A DNA stretch of 20,937 bases, taken from a virus. Where the stretch lies: positions 1 through 20,937 of IMG/VR virus record IMGVR_UViG_3300042539_000484; one strand, 5' to 3'. Both the position numbers and the translations under genes were made by a program. The notes under the pieces are model-generated. The model did not search any database, had not been told where the DNA came from, and was given only the letters and a program-made list of their open reading frames with translations. This document shows, piece after piece, positions 4,363 to 20,937 of this stretch. How positions within the stretch are numbered: position 1 is the stretch's first letter; the number at the start of each line of letters is the position of its first letter.

Positions 4363-4565
4363 CAAATGCAATCCACTTTGTCGGTTTCAAAAATGACCGT
4401 TATCATACGGCGGTTGCTGTGTTTGGTAAGCCAGACTTTATCCATAGGTTCTGGGATTATCGTGCAGTCTGCGAGGTGCAGGAAAACGACATTGTGGTAT
4501 TTGCTGATGGTGATGAAACACAAAACGTAAATCCTTTTGCTTTCGATGACTCGGCTAACTTCTAA
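4359..4565 (+). CDS. small hypothetical protein
   Basis: A 68-residue protein, 'MTNAIHFVGFKNDRYHTAVAVFGKPDFIHRFWDYRA', ending in an acidic, Asn-rich tail. The pattern of strands and aromatic residues suggests a small folded domain. It opens with an ATGA overlap, so it depends on translation of the gene before it. Phage genomes often carry short proteins with an 'FVGF.....Y..A..VFG.PDFIH..WD.RA' layout, which I recall but cannot name. Confidence 0.65.
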   Translation: MTNAIHFVGFKNDRYHTAVAVFGKPDFIHRFWDYRAVCEVQENDIVVFADGDETQNVNPFAFDDSANF

Positions 4566-4576
4566 GGAGATATATA

Positions 4577-4729
4577 ATGGCTAATGTTAAGACTTTCAAT
4601 CTGTCGATCTATATGGTCGGTATGCCTGATATCACGTTTCGTGGTATCTCTCGTGTAGCAGTAAAACGCTATATAAAGTATTATTCAACTGAATTAAATT
4701 ACCGTGGCAATCATGTAGAGGCCCGATAG
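4577..4729 (+). CDS. small basic hypothetical protein
   Basis: A 50-residue basic protein (MANVKTFNLSIYMVGMPDIT, then 'RVAVKRYIKYYSTELNYRG'). AAGGAGA provides a strong SD 8 nt before ATG 4577. No family is recognised. It is the last gene before rtcB, which starts 10 nt after its stop. Confidence 0.55.
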   Translation: MANVKTFNLSIYMVGMPDITFRGISRVAVKRYIKYYSTELNYRGNHVEAR

Positions 4730-4739
4730 GAGAATTAAA

Positions 4740-5963
4740 ATGGCATATCAGTATGTGGATGGCGCTCGTGGTGGTCGCTTAAAGATGTGGTGTGAGGGAG
4801 TTGAGGTCGAGGCTGATGCCCGCACCCAGTTAGACAATATTGCGGCACTCCCGTTTATTGCTGGCCACGTTGCTGTTATGCCGGACGTCCATCTTGGCAA
4901 GGGTGCAACGGTTGGGTCGGTTATTCCGACGGTCGGTGCTGTTGTGCCGGCTGCTGTTGGTGTTGATATCGGTTGTGGTATGATGGCTGTTCGTCTGTCA
5001 TTGACGGCGAACGATCTGCCGGACAACCTTGCTTCTATTCGTTCTCATATTGAGTCCGTGGTTCCGCATGGTCGCACGGATAACGGTGGTAAGAACGACA
5101 AGGGAACGTGGAGCGATGTGCCGGCTCGTGTTATGATTAAGTGGAAGTTATTACAAAACCGCTATGATGCTATTGTAGCAAAGCACCCGAAGATTGCGTC
5201 ACATAAGACCTTCGAGTTTATGGGAACGCTTGGCACGGGTAATCACTTTATCGAACTGTGTTTGGATGAGGACGATTATGTGTGGGTAATGCTACACTCT
5301 GGTTCCCGTGGTGTTGGTAACAAGATTGGACAATACTTCATTGAGGCTGCAAAGCGTGAAATGGAACGCTACCATATCTTGCCGTATCTGCCGGATCAGG
5401 ACTTGTCCTATCTTGTAGAAAACACGACGCTGTTCGATGATTATGTGGAAGCGGTATCGTGGGCACAGGAGTTTGCCGCTCTTAACCGTCAGTTAATGAT
5501 GGTTGCGGTAATTGAAGTATTGCGCCGGCGTTTGCCGCCGTTCGTTGTGTCTGATGAAAAGGCCGTGAACTGTCACCACAACTATATTGCTAAGGAGAAC
5601 CACTTTGGCAAGAATGTGTGGGTGACCCGTAAGGGTGCGGTTCGTGCCCGTAAGGACGATCTTGGTATCATACCGGGATCAATGGGTACGGGTTCGTTTA
5701 TCGTTCGTGGTCTCGGTAACCAGGAGTCGTTTTGTTCGTGTTCTCATGGTGCTGGTCGTCGTATGTCCCGCAATGCGGCTCGTAAGGCTATCACGCTGGA
5801 AGATCATATCAAGGCGACCGAAGGTATTGAGTGCCGTAAGGACGTTGATGTAATCGACGAAAGCCCGGCTGCTTATAAGGACATTGGCGCTGTAATGGCT
5901 GCACAGGATGACCTTGTTGAGATTGTCCATCGCCTTCGTCAGGTTCTAAATGTAAAGGGATAA
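4740..5963 (+). CDS. rtcB: RNA-splicing ligase RtcB
   Basis: A 407-residue full-length RtcB, close to the length of E. coli RtcB. RtcB joins RNA 2',3'-cyclic phosphate or 3'-phosphate ends to 5'-OH ends using GTP and Mn2+, through a guanylated histidine. Diagnostic blocks are all present: 'MPDVHLGKGATVG' (47-59), 'VGVDIGCGM' with the metal-binding Cys (73-81), 'GTGNHFIEL' (165-173), 'HSGSRGVGN' (186-194), 'HHNYI' (279-283), 'IPGSMGTGSF' (311-320) and 'CSHGAGR', whose H336 matches the guanylated histidine. SD AGGAG precedes ATG 4740. Every Arg codon is CGN. In a phage, the likely role is resealing tRNAs cut by host anticodon nucleases, the job of Pnkp plus Rnl1 in T4. Confidence 0.96.
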   Translation: MAYQYVDGARGGRLKMWCEGVEVEADARTQLDNIAALPFIAGHVAVMPDVHLGKGATVGSVIPTVGAVVPAAVGVDIGCGMMAVRLSLTANDLPDNLASIRSHIESVVPHGRTDNGGKNDKGTWSDVPARVMIKWKLLQNRYDAIVAKHPKIASHKTFEFMGTLGTGNHFIELCLDEDDYVWVMLHSGSRGVGNKIGQYFIEAAKREMERYHILPYLPDQDLSYLVENTTLFDDYVEAVSWAQEFAALNRQLMMVAVIEVLRRRLPPFVVSDEKAVNCHHNYIAKENHFGKNVWVTRKGAVRARKDDLGIIPGSMGTGSFIVRGLGNQESFCSCSHGAGRRMSRNAARKAITLEDHIKATEGIECRKDVDVIDESPAAYKDIGAVMAAQDDLVEIVHRLRQVLNVKG

Positions 5964-5966
5964 AAG

Positions 5967-6140
5967 ATGACAGTAGAACAAGCAATCAAGTTTCTAAATG
6001 ACGCTGCCGACTACTTTGATAAACGAACACTGGCAACCAAAGAGGACAAGTCCTATTGGGCCTATGTTACTAATGCAGAAGGTTGTCGGCAAATTGCAGA
6101 CCTTATACAGGAGTTAGCAAAAGATGAAACTGTCACCTAA
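5967..6140 (+). CDS. small hypothetical protein after rtcB
   Basis: A 57-residue helical, acidic protein (MTVEQAIKFLNDAADYF, then 'YWAYVTNAEGCRQIADLIQELAK'). It starts 3 nt after the RtcB stop, with AAAGGGA as ribosome site, so it is co-expressed with RtcB. It overlaps the next gene by 17 nt. No family recognised. Confidence 0.6.
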   Translation: MTVEQAIKFLNDAADYFDKRTLATKEDKSYWAYVTNAEGCRQIADLIQELAKDETVT

Positions 6141-10016: not shown

Positions 10017-10388
10017 ATGTCTAAACTTGTCCTAGTCGAAACTGTTTCCACATTCCGTCATGCTTATGTGGTGCGATTGCCTGACCATGAACCAAATGAA
10101 TATGCTGTTGATGATGTAATTGATAGCATTACTGGTGGACCATATCAAGGTAAACTGGAAGAACTAACACAGCACCATATCGCAGAAGATATCTATAATC
10201 ACCGTGTCATTACTGAAACCGAATATCTACAAATCTTTGACCGTGATAACAGTTATCTAAGTGACTGGGAGCCGATGGAGAAGTTTAAGTTTATCTTTGA
10301 CAGTGCTAAGGCTCGGTCGGAACAAGTCCATAAAGAAGTAAATTGGGGACCGGATGTCGGTCGTGAAATCTTATCAGAGGATTGCTAA
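10017..10388 (+). CDS. hypothetical protein upstream of DNA ligase
   Basis: A 123-residue acidic protein: 'LVLVETVSTFRHAYVVRLPD' then 'AVDDVIDSITGG' and a helical C-terminal half. The first part has the form of a small strand-rich domain that I recall from other phages (V-E-x-V-S-x-F-R-x-R-Y-V-V-x), function unknown. CGGAG is the ribosome site. Its stop overlaps the ligase start by 1 nt, so the two are coupled. Confidence 0.68.
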   Translation: MSKLVLVETVSTFRHAYVVRLPDHEPNEYAVDDVIDSITGGPYQGKLEELTQHHIAEDIYNHRVITETEYLQIFDRDNSYLSDWEPMEKFKFIFDSAKARSEQVHKEVNWGPDVGREILSEDC

Positions 10389-11509
10389 TGACTACCTTCC
10401 CGAAACTTTACAAGATTGACACCAAAGGCCAGACTCGTGTTTGGTGGATGGAACATAATGTTGGTATGGATGGATATCGCACACATTCTGGTATCGATGG
10501 TGGTAAGATTGTAATTTCGGGTTGGACATATCCCGAGGCTAAGAATGTTGGTCGTTCTAATGCTACGACGGTAGAAGAACAGGTTCTAACCGAGATTGAG
10601 TCTGAATATACAAAGAAACAGAACCAGGGTAAATATCACACCTCTGTTGGTGAGTCTATTTACTTTGGTGCCAAATTCTTTGAGTGTATGCTAGCCGACA
10701 AGTTTGATGCTAAGAAGCATAACAAGTTCCCGTATTTCTCACAACCGAAACTTGATGGCGTTCGCTGCCTTATCTCCAAAGATGGTATGCAGTCACGCAA
10801 TGGCAAGCCGATTGTTTCTTGTCCTCATATTCTTGAGGCGCTTGAGCCGTTCTTCCAGAAGTTCCCTGATGCTATTCTGGATGGTGAACTGTATAATCAT
10901 GAACTAAGAGATAACTTCGAAAAGATTATCTCGCTTGTTCGCAAGACTAAGCCAACAACCCAAGACTATATCGAGGCTTCGAAGTTGGTTCAGTATCATG
11001 TCTATGACGAAATCTCTAAGGCTGAATATGAAGATCGTCTAGTATTTCTTCGTGTGTATCTTGGTGACAAGTATGAACCTATAGTGAAGGTTGTTTCTAC
11101 CGGCATGGCGAAAGATTATAATGCTCTATTAGACTTACTAGGCATCTATCTTGAACAGGGTTACGAAGGACAAATGCTTCGTGTTTCTGACTCGCTGTAT
11201 GAAGGTAAGCGTTCCAAGAACCTTATCAAGCATAAGGAATTTGAGGACGATGAATTTGAAATCGTTTCCATCGAAGAAGGAAAAGGTAACTGGGCAGGTG
11301 CTGCCAAGCGTGTGGAAATCCGTTTGAAAGATGGAACGACACAGTTTTCGGGAGTGCGTGGGTCATTTGACATGCTCAAGGACTTGCTGTATAATGCTAA
11401 TGATTATATCGGCACGGACGTTACCGTGAGGTATCAGAACAAAACGGAAGACGGCAAACTTCGTTTTCCTGTTATCGTTGCTTTCTGGAAAGGTAAGCGT
11501 GACATATGA
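10388..11509 (+). CDS. ATP-dependent DNA ligase
   Basis: A 373-residue ligase that seals nicks in DNA using ATP through a lysyl-AMP intermediate. Motif I is K121-LDGVR, motif III 'LDGELY' at 164-169, motif IV 'YEGQMLR' around E260, and motif V 'LIKHK' near 279-283. The OB-fold domain follows ('EFEIVSIEEGKGNWAGAAKR', 'DGTTQFSGVRGSF'). The first 90 residues ('RVWWMEHN', 'GKIVISGWTYPEAKNVGRSN') resemble a WGR-like module, an N-terminal addition seen in some phage ligases. It begins at ATG 10388 (TAATG overlap). Arg codons are nearly all CGN. It likely serves phage replication, recombination and repair. Confidence 0.93.
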   Translation: MTTFPKLYKIDTKGQTRVWWMEHNVGMDGYRTHSGIDGGKIVISGWTYPEAKNVGRSNATTVEEQVLTEIESEYTKKQNQGKYHTSVGESIYFGAKFFECMLADKFDAKKHNKFPYFSQPKLDGVRCLISKDGMQSRNGKPIVSCPHILEALEPFFQKFPDAILDGELYNHELRDNFEKIISLVRKTKPTTQDYIEASKLVQYHVYDEISKAEYEDRLVFLRVYLGDKYEPIVKVVSTGMAKDYNALLDLLGIYLEQGYEGQMLRVSDSLYEGKRSKNLIKHKEFEDDEFEIVSIEEGKGNWAGAAKRVEIRLKDGTTQFSGVRGSFDMLKDLLYNANDYIGTDVTVRYQNKTEDGKLRFPVIVAFWKGKRDI

Positions 11510-16024: not shown

Positions 16025-16321
16025 ATGTCAGGTACAGTTGAAGATGAATTTAATGCTTTTGCGGAATCGTTAGCAAAGAGCGAATATACCAAGGAACAGT
16101 CCGTCCTAATCTTAAAAGAATATGTCAATGTGCTAATCAAGAATAACATTCCATTAGAGCAGCGCCAGGGTGTTGCTCTAACGACTGGTGACTTCACCAA
16201 GCGTGTGCGTAAGCACGACTGGAAGTTTGCTAATGGCTTCTTTGGCAACTGGGCTAAGTCTGCCGTTGAAGGCAAGAAAGGTGAGGTCGAAGATTATGAT
16301 GACCACTATTCAGGCTGTTGA
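16025..16321 (+). CDS. hypothetical helical protein
   Basis: A 98-residue protein, 'DEFNAFAESLAKSEYTKEQS' then 'LKEYVNVLIKNNIPLEQRQG' and an acidic end (EVEDYDDHYSGC). Mostly helical with no catalytic motif. GTGAGG is the ribosome site. Its stop overlaps the exonuclease start by 4 nt (TTGA), so the two genes are coupled and may act together. No family recognised. Confidence 0.68.
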   Translation: MSGTVEDEFNAFAESLAKSEYTKEQSVLILKEYVNVLIKNNIPLEQRQGVALTTGDFTKRVRKHDWKFANGFFGNWAKSAVEGKKGEVEDYDDHYSGC

Positions 16322-16992
16322 AAACTTTTAAGCATCTACACAACGATCCTGTTCTTGTAAATCTGAAAAGAGAAGAATATAATGGCAAGCGATTTTATAT
16401 CTCGCCAAAAGGTACTAAACTCCTATCGGTTACGACTTTTCTATCTCACTTCAAAGGCGACTCTATTGAGAAATGGAGAAAAAAAGTCGGCGAAGAAGAA
16501 GCGAACAAAATCTCGGCACGAGCAAGCCGCAGAGGTACAAAATTCCATTCTCTTATGGAATCTTATATCTCTAATCAGGAAGGGTTCCTTGACGAAGATG
16601 TGATGCCTGATATGCGCCATGCGTTTCGTCAGTTTGTTCCAATCTTAGATAGAGTTGATAATGTCCATTACATGGAAACTATGCTTTATAGCGAGATTCT
16701 TGGTCTTGCTGGTCAGGTGGATTGTATTGCCGAGTTTGATGGTGTCCCTTCTATTATTGACTTTAAAACATCTTTAAAGCCTAAGAGAGAAGATTGGATC
16801 CTCAACTACTTCGAACAATGCACCTGCTACTCTCTCATGTATGAAGAAATGACAGGTGTTCAATGCAAGCAGATTGTGGTTATGATTGCCGTTGATCACG
16901 AAAAACCACAGGTGTTTGTTCGTAATCGTAAAGATTATATGCCAGAGTTGGCACGTAAGATAAGGCAGTTTAGGGATGAAACAGTTATCTAA
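16318..16992 (+). CDS. PD-(D/E)XK exonuclease, T4-like phage type
   Basis: A 224-residue nuclease of the RecB/Cas4/MGME1-like PD-(D/E)XK group. The active-site series is complete: 'RRGTKFH' (71-77), D135 in 'GQVDCIAEF', D148 and K150 in 'IIDFKTS', and Q167-x-x-x-Y171 in the QxxxY motif. Near-identical architecture is common in T4-like cyanophages and relatives, annotated as exonuclease. The start is TTG 16318 within a TTGA overlap; no ATG lies near. Likely role: DNA end processing in recombination or host DNA breakdown. Confidence 0.9.
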   Translation: MKTFKHLHNDPVLVNLKREEYNGKRFYISPKGTKLLSVTTFLSHFKGDSIEKWRKKVGEEEANKISARASRRGTKFHSLMESYISNQEGFLDEDVMPDMRHAFRQFVPILDRVDNVHYMETMLYSEILGLAGQVDCIAEFDGVPSIIDFKTSLKPKREDWILNYFEQCTCYSLMYEEMTGVQCKQIVVMIAVDHEKPQVFVRNRKDYMPELARKIRQFRDETVI

Positions 16993-17179: not shown

Positions 17180-17328
17180 GATCCATTGGCACACATTGTA
17201 AAGCTGGTAACATCAATCTCAAAGGTAAGAAATATAAACTCTTATCTTGTAAATGCTGTGTTATTCAGGATCTTCGTGGTAAAGAACGTATCAAAGAAGC
17301 AAAGAAAGAAATAGGGGAATACAAATGA
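17176..17328 (+). CDS. small Cys-containing conserved phage protein
   Basis: A 50-residue basic protein read from GTG 17176 in a GTGA overlap. 'IGTHCKAGNINLKGKKYKLL' then 'SCKCCVIQDLRGKERIKEAKKEI' fits a short protein I recall from several T4-like phages (H-C-K-x-G-N ... K-G-K-K-x-K-L-L-x-C-x-C-C-x-x-x-D-x-R). The Cys/His set could bind zinc. Function unknown. The conserved look supports it despite the non-ATG start. Confidence 0.65.
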   Translation: MRSIGTHCKAGNINLKGKKYKLLSCKCCVIQDLRGKERIKEAKKEIGEYK

Positions 17329-17444
17329 AGAAAGTATATCTAGCAATCGCATTGGTGTTTCTTAGTTTGGGCTTGTCTGGTTGCTTGGTGGCGACCGTCG
17401 GTGAGTGCATTATACGGGACACAACTAACAAGCCGTGCCAGTAA
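17325..17444 (+). CDS. small lipoprotein
   Basis: A 39-residue protein with an N-terminal signal (MKKVYLAIALVFLSLGLSGC) ending in a lipobox L-S-G-C at 17-20, so a 20-residue lipidated mature peptide (CLVATVGECIIRDTTNKPCQ) with two more Cys is predicted. Tiny phage lipoproteins can be outer-membrane spanins (Rz1-like) or surface-exclusion factors. Rz1-type proteins are usually Pro-rich, which this is not. It starts with an ATGA overlap. Confidence 0.7.
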   Translation: MKKVYLAIALVFLSLGLSGCLVATVGECIIRDTTNKPCQ

Positions 17445-17464
17445 CGGACCCGGAGGCATACAAG

Positions 17465-17758
17465 GTGCAGAGATTGAAGATTTTGAAAATACTATTGATG
17501 CTAATTAGCACACCAGCATTGGCGTCAGAAGATATCTCGTGTGAGAAGAAACTGGCAGATAGCCATGTTGTTCATTGTAAAGCGAAGAAGGTGATAGATG
17601 TTTCGTTGGTCAGCATTAATGGTGGTGAGTGTAACGCTCCTGCATTTCACTGGCATGGTTCAGGTGGGTTCGCTATCCCAGGAACAAAAGAATGTCACTA
17701 TGTTGGTGCAGTCACATTATCAATAGACGGACATAACAAGACATTTGCCCCATTATAG
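17465..17758 (+). CDS. secreted or periplasmic protein with cleavable signal peptide
   Basis: A 97-residue protein with a Sec signal peptide (basic start, then 'ILKILLMLISTPALA' ending in an A-x-A site at about residue 20) and a mature part with four Cys ('ISCEKKL', 'VHCKAKK', 'GGECNAP', 'TKECHYV'), probably two disulfides. GTG 17465 is chosen because GGAGG lies 8 nt upstream. An in-frame GTG at 17435 would add a hydrophilic lead that spoils the signal peptide. It follows the lipoprotein and probably acts in the same compartment. No family recognised. Confidence 0.7.
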   Translation: MQRLKILKILLMLISTPALASEDISCEKKLADSHVVHCKAKKVIDVSLVSINGGECNAPAFHWHGSGGFAIPGTKECHYVGAVTLSIDGHNKTFAPL

Positions 17759-17769
17759 GAGATAGATTA

Positions 17770-17928
17770 ATGGATAAGCCTAAGACATTAGAAGAAAAGA
17801 AAGAACAGTTTTATGAAGGCCTAAGAAAGATCATCGAGGCTAAAGAAAAGCTAGGTCTAACAAAAGACGCTACCTATAAAAAGTCAAAAGAACTCTTGGA
17901 TAAGCTGACACAAGAAAAGACACAGTGA
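17770..17928 (+). CDS. small coiled-coil protein
   Basis: A 52-residue, Lys/Glu-rich helical protein (LEEKKEQFYEGLRKIIEAKE, 'KKSKELLDKLTQEKTQ'). TAGGAGA lies 9-14 nt before ATG 17770. Its stop overlaps the GTG start of the adenylating enzyme by 4 nt (GTGA), so it is translationally coupled to that enzyme. Its size and charge could suit a partner protein, but it shows no carrier-protein serine motif. Confidence 0.6.
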   Translation: MDKPKTLEEKKEQFYEGLRKIIEAKEKLGLTKDATYKKSKELLDKLTQEKTQ

Positions 17929-19427
17929 ATAAGATTATCACCCGTGACTGGATAAACGACGACATTGTTATCCGTTGTGGTGTGACATACAAGATGCCTA
18001 GAAAGGTGTTGATTGAAAGTTACACCAAACAGGATTTGTGTCAGTTTATAAATTTCTGGAAGGTAGAATTGCTATCTAATGGAGCCAAGCGTGGTGATAA
18101 GATAGGCTATTGTATCGAACCTTCAGACATTCACTCAACCGCACTTATGTTTGCTGCTTTCGAGTTAGGCATGAGTGTGGTTGTTTTGCATAGACCAAAC
18201 AACGAAAGAGAATGTCTGGCCCCTAAAAGTAACTCACACCTACCATTAGACTTCTTTGTTTATCTGGCAGCGTATGAGCATATTCCATTACTAGTTACCG
18301 CTATAGTTCATTTCAGTCGTAACTCAAAGAAGGTATTGGTGTATGGTAATCACGATTGGCAGAACCAGCGTTCGACTCTAAAATCAGACGAAGAAACTCC
18401 CATACTAGCCCAGCCGGGTGATGTTGCTCTATTGTGCAATAGCAGCGGCACTACTGGTGTTCCTAAACTCATATCACACTCACATGAGTTTTTCCATGAC
18501 CTATGCACGTATAACTGGGAGGTGTTGAAATATGATCCTGAGGATCATTTCATGCATCTTTCGTCGCTCAATCATGGTGCCGCATTATCATTTGTTCTAC
18601 CTGCACTACACATATGCAAGCATAACTATTTTTATGTTGATATGGGTGGCAAAGGTGAGTTACAATCAGATCCTTTCTATCAAGAATACTACGATCTAAC
18701 TAACGACTGTATTGAGCATGGCATCACCAGAATATTCTGTGCAGGTGGTGGCGCTATCAATGAGTTTATCAAACACCTAAGAGCAAGAGATATCAAGCTA
18801 CCCAATACTAACATTATGATACTATCATTCATTAGTCCTGACTGGCGTGCTGCTATCAGCGAGAGTGTGCTACAAAGCATTAACAGCCCATTTGGATGTA
18901 GTGAGGTATGTGGTCCAGTGTTCATGACATGGCTTGATAAGGATACTGTAGATAAGTTTGATCCTAGATATCTGGGATATCCTACAGAAGGCTTCTATGA
19001 TACAAAGGTCATTGATGGTCGTATTCATACTAGCACACCTTACAATCAGGTTGTCTTTGATGACATTGTAGAAGAAAGAGCCGATGGCTATTACTTCAAG
19101 AGTAAGAACAGACTGCAAAAGCTAAACGATATTGATATCAATCCAGTGGATATTATGGAGATACTTGAGCATTATAATACCAGATATGCGTTTGAGATTT
19201 ATATTGACGAGGTCTATAATGAGTTGTATATTCTAACGTCAGACTCGAAAACGTATAAGATGGGTAAGTTTATCGTGGAAGATATCGACTCGTTCTATCA
19301 CGGTAAGATACCCACCGCTAATGTCATATATGATCCCGAACTAAACCAAGCCACGATAAGCAACAAAGCGGACAAAGATAAGCTGGCAGGTATAGTTGAA
19401 AGATATCGCTTGACAAAAAACTCCTGA
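17925..19427 (+). CDS. ANL-superfamily adenylating enzyme (acyl-CoA synthetase/NRPS A-domain-like)
   Basis: A 500-residue, full-length adenylate-forming enzyme of the ANL superfamily, which activates a carboxylate as acyl-AMP and passes it to a thiol or amine. The A3 P-loop core 'LLCNSSGTTGVPK' is at 169-181, the A4-like 'LNHGAAL' at 215-221, and the A5 equivalent 'FGCSEVCG' at 323-330. An A7/A8 region follows ('FDDIVEERADGYYF', 'NRLQKLNDIDINPVDI', 378-410), and an A10-like 'NKADKDKL' at 480-487 supplies the candidate catalytic Lys. No thiolation domain is fused. The start is GTG 17925 in a GTGA overlap. The substrate cannot be read from sequence. Arg codons are mixed CGN/AGA. Confidence 0.88.
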   Translation: MNKIITRDWINDDIVIRCGVTYKMPRKVLIESYTKQDLCQFINFWKVELLSNGAKRGDKIGYCIEPSDIHSTALMFAAFELGMSVVVLHRPNNERECLAPKSNSHLPLDFFVYLAAYEHIPLLVTAIVHFSRNSKKVLVYGNHDWQNQRSTLKSDEETPILAQPGDVALLCNSSGTTGVPKLISHSHEFFHDLCTYNWEVLKYDPEDHFMHLSSLNHGAALSFVLPALHICKHNYFYVDMGGKGELQSDPFYQEYYDLTNDCIEHGITRIFCAGGGAINEFIKHLRARDIKLPNTNIMILSFISPDWRAAISESVLQSINSPFGCSEVCGPVFMTWLDKDTVDKFDPRYLGYPTEGFYDTKVIDGRIHTSTPYNQVVFDDIVEERADGYYFKSKNRLQKLNDIDINPVDIMEILEHYNTRYAFEIYIDEVYNELYILTSDSKTYKMGKFIVEDIDSFYHGKIPTANVIYDPELNQATISNKADKDKLAGIVERYRLTKNS

Positions 19428-19440
19428 TATGTTATAAATA
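19410..19440 (+). promoter_or_regulatory. tmRNA promoter: early -35/-10 overlapping a T4-type late box
   Basis: TTGACA at 19410-19415, 17-nt spacer, TATAAA at 19433-19438 preceded by TGT (extended -10). The same bases extend to TATAAATA (19433-19440), the T4 late promoter box, followed by CTATG. The promoter lies across the end of the ANL gene, so the tmRNA has its own transcription start near 19445 and could be read both early and late. Confidence 0.75.
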
Positions 19441-19511
19441 CTATGCTTAGGTCGTTGAGAGACGAAACATAGGTTTCTTGGACGTGGGGGCAGTTCCCAC
19501 CCGGTCCACCA
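19441..19511 (+). ncRNA. ssrA: tmRNA acceptor piece
   Basis: Contains the T arm (GTGGG 19484-19488, loop GGCAGTT, CCCAC 19496-19500), the acceptor 3' strand CCGGTCC (19501-19507), discriminator A and encoded CCA (19509-19511). The loop GGCAGTT differs from the usual TTCGAAT of tRNAs; I recall this form from alphaproteobacterial two-piece tmRNAs. Upstream, ACATAG (19467-19472) can pair with CTATGT (19735-19740) of the coding piece, as expected for helix P2. The 5' end is approximate. Confidence 0.85.
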
Positions 19512-19582
19512 TAAGCACTTGCGTATTAGCCGCACCATGAAAATGACGTATGCGGGGGAATGTAAATCGGGTAGTGCTTATG
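19510..19582. repeat. processing stem of the tmRNA precursor
   Basis: CATAAGCACT (19510-19519) and AGTGCTTATG (19573-19582) form a perfect 10-bp inverted repeat that closes the segment between the two tmRNA pieces. It extends nearly from the acceptor stem, so the precursor can fold with both pieces joined by one long hairpin, which is then cut out to make the mature two-piece RNA. Confidence 0.85.
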
Positions 19583-19584
19583 AT

Positions 19585-19757
19585 GGGCCGGAATCAGGTT
19601 CGACAGGATTCAGTAAGGTCGTAAGGAGACCGAAAGCAAATCGTAAATGCAAACGACAACAATGCATATGAGGCTTTCGCTCTAGCAGCGTAATCCTTTG
19701 GGTATGGGCTCCACCTCGAAACAGAACGGGCCCGCTATGTGTTCCATCGCACACGAT
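19585..19757 (+). ncRNA. ssrA: tmRNA coding piece
   Basis: Begins at GGGCCGG (19585-19591), followed by the D-loop-like GGTTCGACAGG. Within it, GGTC/GACC around 19617-19632 could be part of a pseudoknot. After the tag stop, GGGCTC (19706-19711) pairs with GGGCCC (19728-19733) and CTATGT (19735-19740) can pair with the acceptor piece. The 3' end near 19757 is inferred from the start of the hairpin at 19758. Confidence 0.82.
19649..19693 (+). other. tmRNA proteolysis tag reading frame
   Basis: Resume codon GCA at 19649, then AAC GAC AAC AAT GCA TAT GAG GCT TTC GCT CTA GCA GCG and TAA at 19691-19693. The tag is ANDNNAYEAFALAA. The AND start and the hydrophobic ALAA end match bacterial SsrA tags; the -LAA end is what ClpXP recognises. 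The extra length and E-x-F-A before LAA are of alphaproteobacterial type. Confidence 0.9.
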
Positions 19758-19796
19758 TTTCCCCTTTTTCATTATAAATACCAATGAGAGGGGAAA
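19758..19796 (+). promoter_or_regulatory. hairpin with late promoter in its loop and ribosome site in its stem
   Basis: TTTCCCC (19758-19764) pairs with GGGGAAA (19790-19796), and inside that TCATT (19769-19773) with AATGA (19783-19787). The late box TATAAATA (19773-19780) spans the inner stem edge and loop, and the SD GAGAGGGG of the next gene is in the 3' arm. Transcripts from the tmRNA promoter would hide the SD; transcripts from the late box would start after the 5' arm and leave it open. T4 gene e is controlled this way. It may also mark the tmRNA 3' end. Confidence 0.6.
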
Positions 19797-19910: not shown

Positions 19911-20105
19911 ATGAGTGAGAAAGACAAATACACTGGTATGCGTGAGTTTAACTTTGCTCTAAGCGCCAACGTCTATATCTGTGCCTTTGCCGGTTTGTTT
20001 CTAGGTGCTATTCTAGGATACTGGGCAACAGGAGTAATCGAAATCACTATCGCATCCGCAGTTACAATATCGCTTCTTTCAGGCATCTTTGGTATGTTCG
20101 TATGA
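19911..20105 (+). CDS. two-helix small membrane protein
   Basis: A 64-residue protein with a polar start (MSEKDKYTGMREFNFALSAN) and two transmembrane helices ('VYICAFAGLFLGAILGYWAT' and 'IEITIASAVTISLLSGIFGM') joined by a short turn, so N- and C-termini are on the same side. AAAGGAA is the ribosome site. It overlaps the next gene by 4 nt (ATGA). The hairpin topology resembles class II holins, but nothing more supports a lysis role. Confidence 0.68.
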   Translation: MSEKDKYTGMREFNFALSANVYICAFAGLFLGAILGYWATGVIEITIASAVTISLLSGIFGMFV

Positions 20106-20326
20106 CGCCCGACGACATTCAGAAATTCAGTTTGCAGATTGAGGAAATGGTCTATATGAAAGACATTCCTTATATCGATGCTGTTATCATGTATTGTGAA
20201 GAAACAGGATTTGAACTAGAGACAGCCGCCAAACTTATCTCTGGCGTTCTCAAATCTAAGATAAAATTAGAAGCCGAAGACCTCCACTACCTTAAGAAAT
20301 CAAACACCTCCCAACTCCCTCTCTAA
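20102..20326 (+). CDS. gp33-like late transcription co-activator
   Basis: A 74-residue helical, acidic protein: 'MTPDDIQKFSLQIEEMVYMK', 'IPYIDAVIMYCEETGFELET', 'AAKLISGVLKSKIKLEAEDL', ending KKSNTSQLPL. The scheme F-S-x-x-I-E-x-x-V ... Y-x-D-A-V-x-x-Y-C-E-x-x-x-x-E-x-x-x-A-A-K-L-I ... L-K-x-K-I-x-x-E-A-x-x-L and final LPL matches the small protein annotated in T4-like phages as gp33, which binds RNA polymerase and links late promoters to the sliding clamp. Consistent with the TATAAATA boxes nearby. The call rests on recalled family pattern. Confidence 0.62.
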   Translation: MTPDDIQKFSLQIEEMVYMKDIPYIDAVIMYCEETGFELETAAKLISGVLKSKIKLEAEDLHYLKKSNTSQLPL

Positions 20327-20335
20327 TATGGTGAT

Positions 20336-20937
20336 ATGATGTTTAGTGAATATGAAGTATATGATATTGAAAAAGCAAAGAACCATATCAAAACTCTAAT
20401 CGGAACCCGTAGCCTTTTGTGGAATGGTATCACTCGCAATGTCGTGATTGCTGGTGGTTTCTTTACAAGCGTTTTACAAAACACACCTTTCAAGGACGTT
20501 GATATCTTTATTCTGAACAATGATGTTGATGTTTATAACAACTTGACCGAGCGCCAGCAGCGGCCGCTATGGCGCCGATCTGAAATGATGTCATACATGC
20601 ACAATAAAAACATTGTTGATGTTATCAATAATACTAAAACAGATGCACAGTATATTCTCACCAAGTATAAGACCCGTGAGGAACTACTGAGTCACTTTGA
20701 TTATAAGCATTGCAAGGTGTCGTATGTTCCTGAGGAAGATAAACTCTATATCAACCGTGAGACCTTCGACTGCATCAAGAATAAGATCCTCAAGTGGAAC
20801 AACAATAAACAACTTGAACACCCAAATCAGATATATCGTAAGAACAGGTTTCTCAATCAAGGTTGGGTGCTTGAAACAGATAAAAAAGAAGAACAATCAT
20901 ATGGTAATATTTTGATGCAGTCTTATGAGAAGTTGAA
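20336..20937 (+). CDS. nucleotidyltransferase-like protein, cut by window end
   Basis: At least 200 residues, open to the window edge. 'VVIAGGFFTSVLQNTPFKDVDIFIL' near residues 38-62 is the nucleotidyltransferase signature G-G-(x)n-S...D-x-D-I-F, with a D-V-D metal-binding pair as in poly(A) polymerase or CCA-adding folds. The later part ('ILTKYKTREELLSHFDYKHC', 'YINRETFDCIKNKILK') resembles uncharacterised T4-like phage proteins. ATG 20336 and 20339 are both possible; no clear SD is visible. Substrate unknown: adenylylation of RNA ends or of a protein are both open. Confidence 0.7.
   Translation, partial: MMFSEYEVYDIEKAKNHIKTLIGTRSLLWNGITRNVVIAGGFFTSVLQNTPFKDVDIFILNNDVDVYNNLTERQQRPLWRRSEMMSYMHNKNIVDVINNTKTDAQYILTKYKTREELLSHFDYKHCKVSYVPEEDKLYINRETFDCIKNKILKWNNNKQLEHPNQIYRKNRFLNQGWVLETDKKEEQSYGNILMQSYEKL

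Follow-up and report, generated by a model that had tools for sequence, protein, structure and literature searches.

Results

The window, by which we mean the whole 20,937-nucleotide stretch analysed here (positions 1 to 20,937 of IMG/VR record IMGVR_UViG_3300042539_000484), derives from an aquatic, T4-like phage and carries on its plus strand a gene for a predicted ANL-superfamily adenylate-forming enzyme of 500 amino acids (17925..19427). The preliminary description had placed such an enzyme in a phage genome, and the T4-like identity of the carrier is indicated by a terminase 53% identical to those of cyanomyoviruses, a gp59-like helicase loader, PhoH and a virion structural protein. Contig G001 (47.9 kb), obtained from another sample, overlaps the window over 7,952 bases with 77 mismatches (~1%), and its copy of the enzyme differs from that of the window at two residues. 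The branch of the window enzyme is completed by three contigs at 63–65% identity, i.e., L070, L071 (on the 81-kb contig G005) and L030. Among these three relatives dN/dS is ~0.09 (0.036/0.383 and 0.058/0.627); the gene is therefore under purifying selection and does not persist merely as a decaying copy, a scenario that the preliminary description had raised. Elsewhere the window encodes an RtcB-type RNA ligase (4740-5963) and an ATP-dependent DNA ligase (10382-11509), and the region 15435-15968 matches the S-adenosylmethionine lyase family PF23780 weakly (19.7 bits vs. a cut-off of 28).

The gene order around the enzyme is kept throughout the branch and consists of an exonuclease, a 39-residue lipoprotein, the ANL enzyme, a permuted tmRNA, a 74-residue coactivator-like protein and a gp59-like gene. 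The PD-(D/E)XK exonuclease in the upstream flank (16318..16992, plus strand; PF12705, E = 3e-7; phrog_298, E = 2e-71) belongs to cluster c40, which is kept in L070, L071, and L030. The predicted lipoprotein (MKKVYLAIALVFLSLGLSGC...; 17325..17444, plus strand), which carries the lipobox LSGC and had been noted ahead of the enzyme before, has orthologues in L070 (3560-3679), L071 (3212-3331), and L030 (231-350) and thus lies upstream of the enzyme in all four phages of the branch. Two other upstream genes that had been emphasized are present in the window and confined to its own strain. A secreted protein of 107 amino acids with four cysteines (17435..17758, plus strand, start probably the GTG at 17464) appears to be a strain-specific insertion, as tblastn matches were restricted to same-strain contigs. 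A small coiled-coil protein of 52 amino acids (17770..17928, plus strand) does overlap the enzyme start at a GTGA (stop codon at 17926-17928, enzyme start at 17925), but it was absent from the branch relatives by tblastn, and we reject a conserved translational coupling between the two genes on these grounds. The 64-residue membrane protein downstream (19911-20105) was likewise found in same-strain contigs only, so that the neighbors stressed in the preliminary description are mostly strain-specific, with the exception of the lipoprotein and the tmRNA. In the downstream flank, near gp59, the 74-residue protein (20102..20326, plus strand; cluster c41, found in all branch members) is probably a T4 gp33-like late-transcription coactivator, judging from its position and from a previous report (PMC9004378). 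Between this gene and gp59 the window additionally encodes a nucleotidyltransferase-like protein (20336-20935; phrog_1614, 2e-11), which is absent in the relatives L070 and L071. A match to the T4 late promoter (TATAAATA) was at chance level and was discarded.

Directly downstream of the enzyme, as previously noted, lies a permuted (two-piece) tmRNA of the alphaproteobacterial type with the tag ANDNNAYEAFALAA (19406..19784, plus strand), called by ARAGORN (19419-19784) and by the Rfam models RF01849 (19406-19736) and RF04321 (19450-19693). Its type hints at an alphaproteobacterial host, short of proof. The tmRNA begins inside the final codons of the enzyme, and it occupies the same place in L070, L071, and L030. 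This direct adjacency in all four branch members could be taken to mean that the enzyme acts on translation, e.g., through the adjoining tmRNA. However, the adjacency is limited to this one branch, for which reason we reject a functional link: where phages elsewhere in the family carry a tmRNA, it is located apart from the enzyme (in G013, enzyme at ~31 kb and tmRNA at 65.5 kb). Charging of tRNA is not known for ANL enzymes, and a role in translation appears most improbable. Moreover, the marine phage Melnitz has already been reported to carry a permuted tmRNA ahead of its transcription coactivator, in a paper that makes no mention of an ANL gene (PMC9004378).

Several lines of evidence indicate that the open reading frame encodes an intact ANL enzyme with a predicted two-domain fold and all core catalytic motifs. 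It starts with GTG, where relatives have ATG at the same position, and its product matches the Pfam AMP-binding model PF00501 above the cut-off (E = 7e-14, 51.8 bits vs. 29.9). The motifs listed in the preliminary description were all recovered: A3 reads SSGTTGVPK (K181), the A4-like motif is NHG (H217 followed by Gly218), A5 is FGCSE (G324, E327) within FGCSEVCGP, and A7 contains D380. K181, H217, G324, and D380 are identical across all 44 family members, and E327 is conserved too. The A8 hinge motif GRxD (PMC11253843) reads KNR within an A8-like KNRLQK, a replacement of the hinge Asp by Arg that is common to the window's branch and that could alter the thioester half-reaction. The A10-like SNKADKDKL holds K481; since the automatic family alignment misplaced this region, its pairing with GIKxDN, the counterpart of the C-terminal Lys in most other family members, was obtained by shifting a gap by hand. 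An AlphaFold2 model built from 24 family sequences (pLDDT 83.8, pTM 0.77; residues 475-483, including K481, at low confidence) spans both the N- and the C-terminal domain, and Foldseek matched it to full-length ANL structures such as McyG, EntE, and acyl-CoA and acyl-ACP synthetases with E values down to 1e-19 at 11–16% identity. The completeness that had been claimed for the enzyme is thus supported by the Pfam match, the predicted full-length fold and the core residues, and the enzyme very probably has adenylating activity. None of the NCBIfam subfamily models reached its cut-off; the nearest curated models describe long-chain acyl-CoA and aryl-acid ligases (15–37 bits vs. cut-offs of several hundred), and TIGR01733, the amino-acid adenylation domain, matches weakly. 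A GH3 acyl-acid amido synthetase was considered and rejected (16.9 bits vs. a cut-off of 23.6).

Relatives of the enzyme were gathered from IMG/VR by a motif scan and a profile-guided scan (48 loci), with extra members contributed by the DUF6356 scan described below. The approximately 44 non-redundant members form a single virus-only clade, which has support 98 and includes several long branches. The phylogeny against phage ANL sequences that the preliminary description had called for thus places the window enzyme inside this clade, its branch lying deep in the tree with a stem of 1.43 changes per column. Among the matches listed, close homologues came from viral contigs only, and those listed for the 84,980 bacterial and archaeal genomes that were scanned agreed with the enzyme at motif level only. 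The family profile scores ~270–640 bits on phage members (fragments and one decayed copy lower) vs. 17–37 bits on bacterial ANL proteins; its score of 468 bits on the window enzyme comes from a profile that was built with this sequence included. Searching 50,697 annotated phage genomes by tblastn with four family members yielded no match. In BFVD/UniProt, the best viral structural match (E = 6e-28) was to A0A6J5L571 and A0A6J5L563 of an uncultured Caudovirales phage, which are 18% identical to the window enzyme and named AMP-dependent synthetase/ligase; ANL genes in phages are therefore not new as annotations. We found no report of a function or gene context for these two proteins. The literature searched contained nothing relevant on ANL enzymes or acyl-CoA synthetases in phages.

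The A4 motif provides an indication of the substrate. NHG is of the acyl/aryl-acid type, and in an alignment with salicylate-AMP ligase the AHN of the latter pairs with it. In GrsA, D235 of the FDxS-type A4 binds the α-amino group (PMC11253843), while at the corresponding position 40 of the 44 family members have Gly and the others Ser or Ala. The lack of a D235-type Asp in 44 of 44 members favors a carboxylate other than an amino acid, which we consider the probable substrate, although the deep branch position allows for a different substrate in the window's branch. The earlier proposal that the enzyme activates an acyl or an amino acid therefore fits better on its acyl side, as the motifs argue against an α-amino acid. 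The absence of this Asp is not an absolute sign against amino acids, as McyG activates Phe without it (PMC11253843). An alternative is accordingly that the enzyme adenylates an amino acid and passes it on to a sugar, a peptide, or a small molecule, as a stand-alone NRPS-type A domain or DltA would. The A-PCP structure of McyG was indeed the top Foldseek match, TIGR01733 matches the enzyme weakly, and the amidinotransferase in five related cassettes (see below) suggests amino or guanidino chemistry. However, the Foldseek scores are nearly level among ANL enzymes, the position of D235 is occupied as described, and a carrier protein is missing from the enzyme contigs, so that we regard amino-acid activation as improbable. 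Specifically, PP-binding domains were detected in none of the 43 enzyme contigs, most of which are fragments, compared with 11 of 14 control genomes. The missing carrier could reflect incomplete contigs; taken at face value, it makes CoA or a host carrier the likely acceptor, and from the sequences we give thioester transfer to either of them about even odds.

A small membrane protein of the DUF6356 family (PF19883) is encoded on 30 of the 43 enzyme contigs, and its gene usually either overlaps the enzyme gene at its end or just precedes the enzyme start. The order varies by group, with either the enzyme first or DUF6356 first (transaldolase group). A scan of viral sequences for DUF6356, with patterns independent of the enzyme but a query taken from copies adjoining it, gave 40 loci, some redundant. 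In 38 of them an ANL gene is located no more than 4 kb away; the remaining two are found where a contig starts. L148 and L151, which are among the 38, have a different and very divergent ANL gene (4478-6001) directly beside DUF6356, to which the family profile gives only 41 and 39 bits. A second DUF6356 copy occurs elsewhere in the genome of G013, and L150:6173-9207 contains tandem enzyme copies by DUF6356, the second of which has lost A3 and continues into a kinase-like sequence. DUF6356 was absent from G000, G001 (47.9 kb), and G005 (81 kb), i.e., from the window's branch, as well as from L091, L081, L105-L107, and L027/L088. The predicted DUF6356 structure has four helices, one of 27 residues, and invariant His residues. 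Outside viruses, DUF6356 was found in 48 of 240 alphaproteobacterial genomes; none of 30 alphaproteobacterial loci (L153-L182, ~3 kb context) showed an ANL gene beside it, and in 16 of them a divergent gene for an Lrp/AsnC-type regulator adjoins. We found no match to DUF6356 in annotated phages (tblastn) or, with its profile, in a sequence search of the PDB, and the literature searched contained nothing relevant beyond one unrelated paper that mentions the name.

These observations bear on the possibility that the enzyme is a plain metabolic helper, i.e., an acyl- or aryl-CoA ligase that supplies the carbon or lipid metabolism of the infected host and belongs to no phage pathway of its own. 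Such a function would agree with the nearest curated models, with the acyl/aryl type of A4 and with the stand-alone position of the enzyme in the window's branch. However, the family consists of viral proteins only and is distant from all cellular CoA ligases among the matches listed, and a DUF6356 partner, as present in most relatives, would be needless for a housekeeping CoA ligase. We consider this explanation unlikely.

In many relatives the enzyme is accompanied by gene cassettes, whose partners include SPASM radical SAM proteins, Asp/Arg-hydroxylase-like proteins, StrB1-like amidinotransferase, RfbH-like proteins and carbamoyl transferases, together with mannose-6-P isomerase, epimerases and transaldolase. 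Counting genes no farther than 6 kb from the enzyme over 34 non-redundant loci, we found radical-SAM clusters in 17, hydroxylase-like genes in 16, tail-fibre-like genes in 16 (read from the sequences), epimerases and the mannose-6-P isomerase cluster in 9 each, transaldolase in 7 and amidinotransferase in 5; all of these counts come from loci that carry the enzyme. Tandem SPASM/twitch radical-SAM genes (cluster c2) lie by the enzyme in L083-L102 and others, and in L072-L076 and L078 a gene resembling inosamine-phosphate amidinotransferase StrB1 (E = 8e-88; cluster c25, e.g., L072:8937-9989) is directly upstream of it. In the window's branch no sugar or radical-SAM cassette was found next to the enzyme; in G005, two radical-SAM genes occur 60 kb away from the enzyme, in an apparent tail-fibre block. 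Tandem SPASM/twitch radical-SAM genes at L183:16425-18734 lie in what is likely the tail-fibre block of the window's branch. Overall, what the neighboring genes in relatives suggest is a tailoring of small molecules, glycans or the envelope. The modification of DNA or RNA that the preliminary description had also considered gained no support from the analysis, which does not argue against it either. Many cassettes border tail-fibre-like genes in a variable region, however, and the sugar and radical-SAM neighbors may therefore be mere co-located cargo. The enzyme gene is accessory, and its sites vary and lie close to further accessory genes, which would also suit the role in defense or counter-defense put forward in the preliminary description; an adenylate or conjugate made by the enzyme would then act against host immunity or a rival phage. 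Nothing in the analysis supports this role specifically, and we deem it very unlikely.

Discussion

The reading that we prefer, to which we assign a probability of roughly 0.4 as a whole, is that of a stand-alone ANL ligase transferring a non-amino acyl group to a host pantetheine thiol for envelope tailoring. The enzyme would use ATP and a carboxylic acid without a free α-amino group (acyl, aryl, keto, or hydroxy) to form an acyl-AMP. Its C-terminal domain would then swing, and the acyl group would pass to the thiol of a pantetheine supplied by the host as CoA or a host carrier protein. The activated acyl group would finally feed phage tailoring at or for the cell envelope, with DUF6356 and the radical-SAM, hydroxylase-like, and sugar-enzyme cassettes as partners in most relatives and possibly the conserved 39-residue lipoprotein in the window's branch. 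This tailoring is the weakest step, and for the window's branch we infer it from kinship and the conserved lipoprotein; a role in envelope or glycan tailoring is accordingly a tentative proposal.

The pairing of ANL enzyme and DUF6356 appears to be the undescribed part of these findings. That a conserved adenylating enzyme of T4-like aquatic phages is linked in most of them with a single family of membrane proteins implies a biochemical pathway in phages that is undescribed in the literature searched; DUF6356 gains its first candidate functional partner, and the small two-gene system is open to test. More speculatively, and with considerable doubt, the two genes may constitute a phage system that loads an acid onto a membrane or envelope acceptor, in which case the ancestor would have had both and the window's branch would have swapped the membrane part for the 39-residue lipoprotein. 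If true, the system could, e.g., exclude other phages.

With the ANL superfamily (PF00501) the window enzyme shares the predicted two-domain fold, A3, A5, A7, and an A10-like Lys, but it is set apart by low identity (11–16%), by passing no NCBIfam subfamily cut-off and by the change of GRxD to KNR. NRPS-type A domains for α-amino acids have D235 and a cognate carrier, in contrast to the window enzyme, which lacks the former and has no carrier in the 43 contigs. The replacement of the aromatic-Asp pair in A4 by His is found in EntE, the salicylate-AMP ligase CahJ, MenE, and acyl-CoA/acyl-ACP synthetases as in the window enzyme. However, aryl-acid ligases of the EntE/DhbE type carry QQVxFMAEGL as their A5 signature (PMC11253843), where the window enzyme has FGCSEVCGP and no carrier partner. 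A parallel to the gene pair, as an analogy only, is offered by a different type of system. DltA/DltX-type systems combine an ANL enzyme with a small membrane protein for envelope acylation. While they have a DltC-like carrier, of which none was found in the 43 enzyme contigs, they share with most relatives of the window enzyme the placement of an adenylating enzyme beside a tiny membrane protein.
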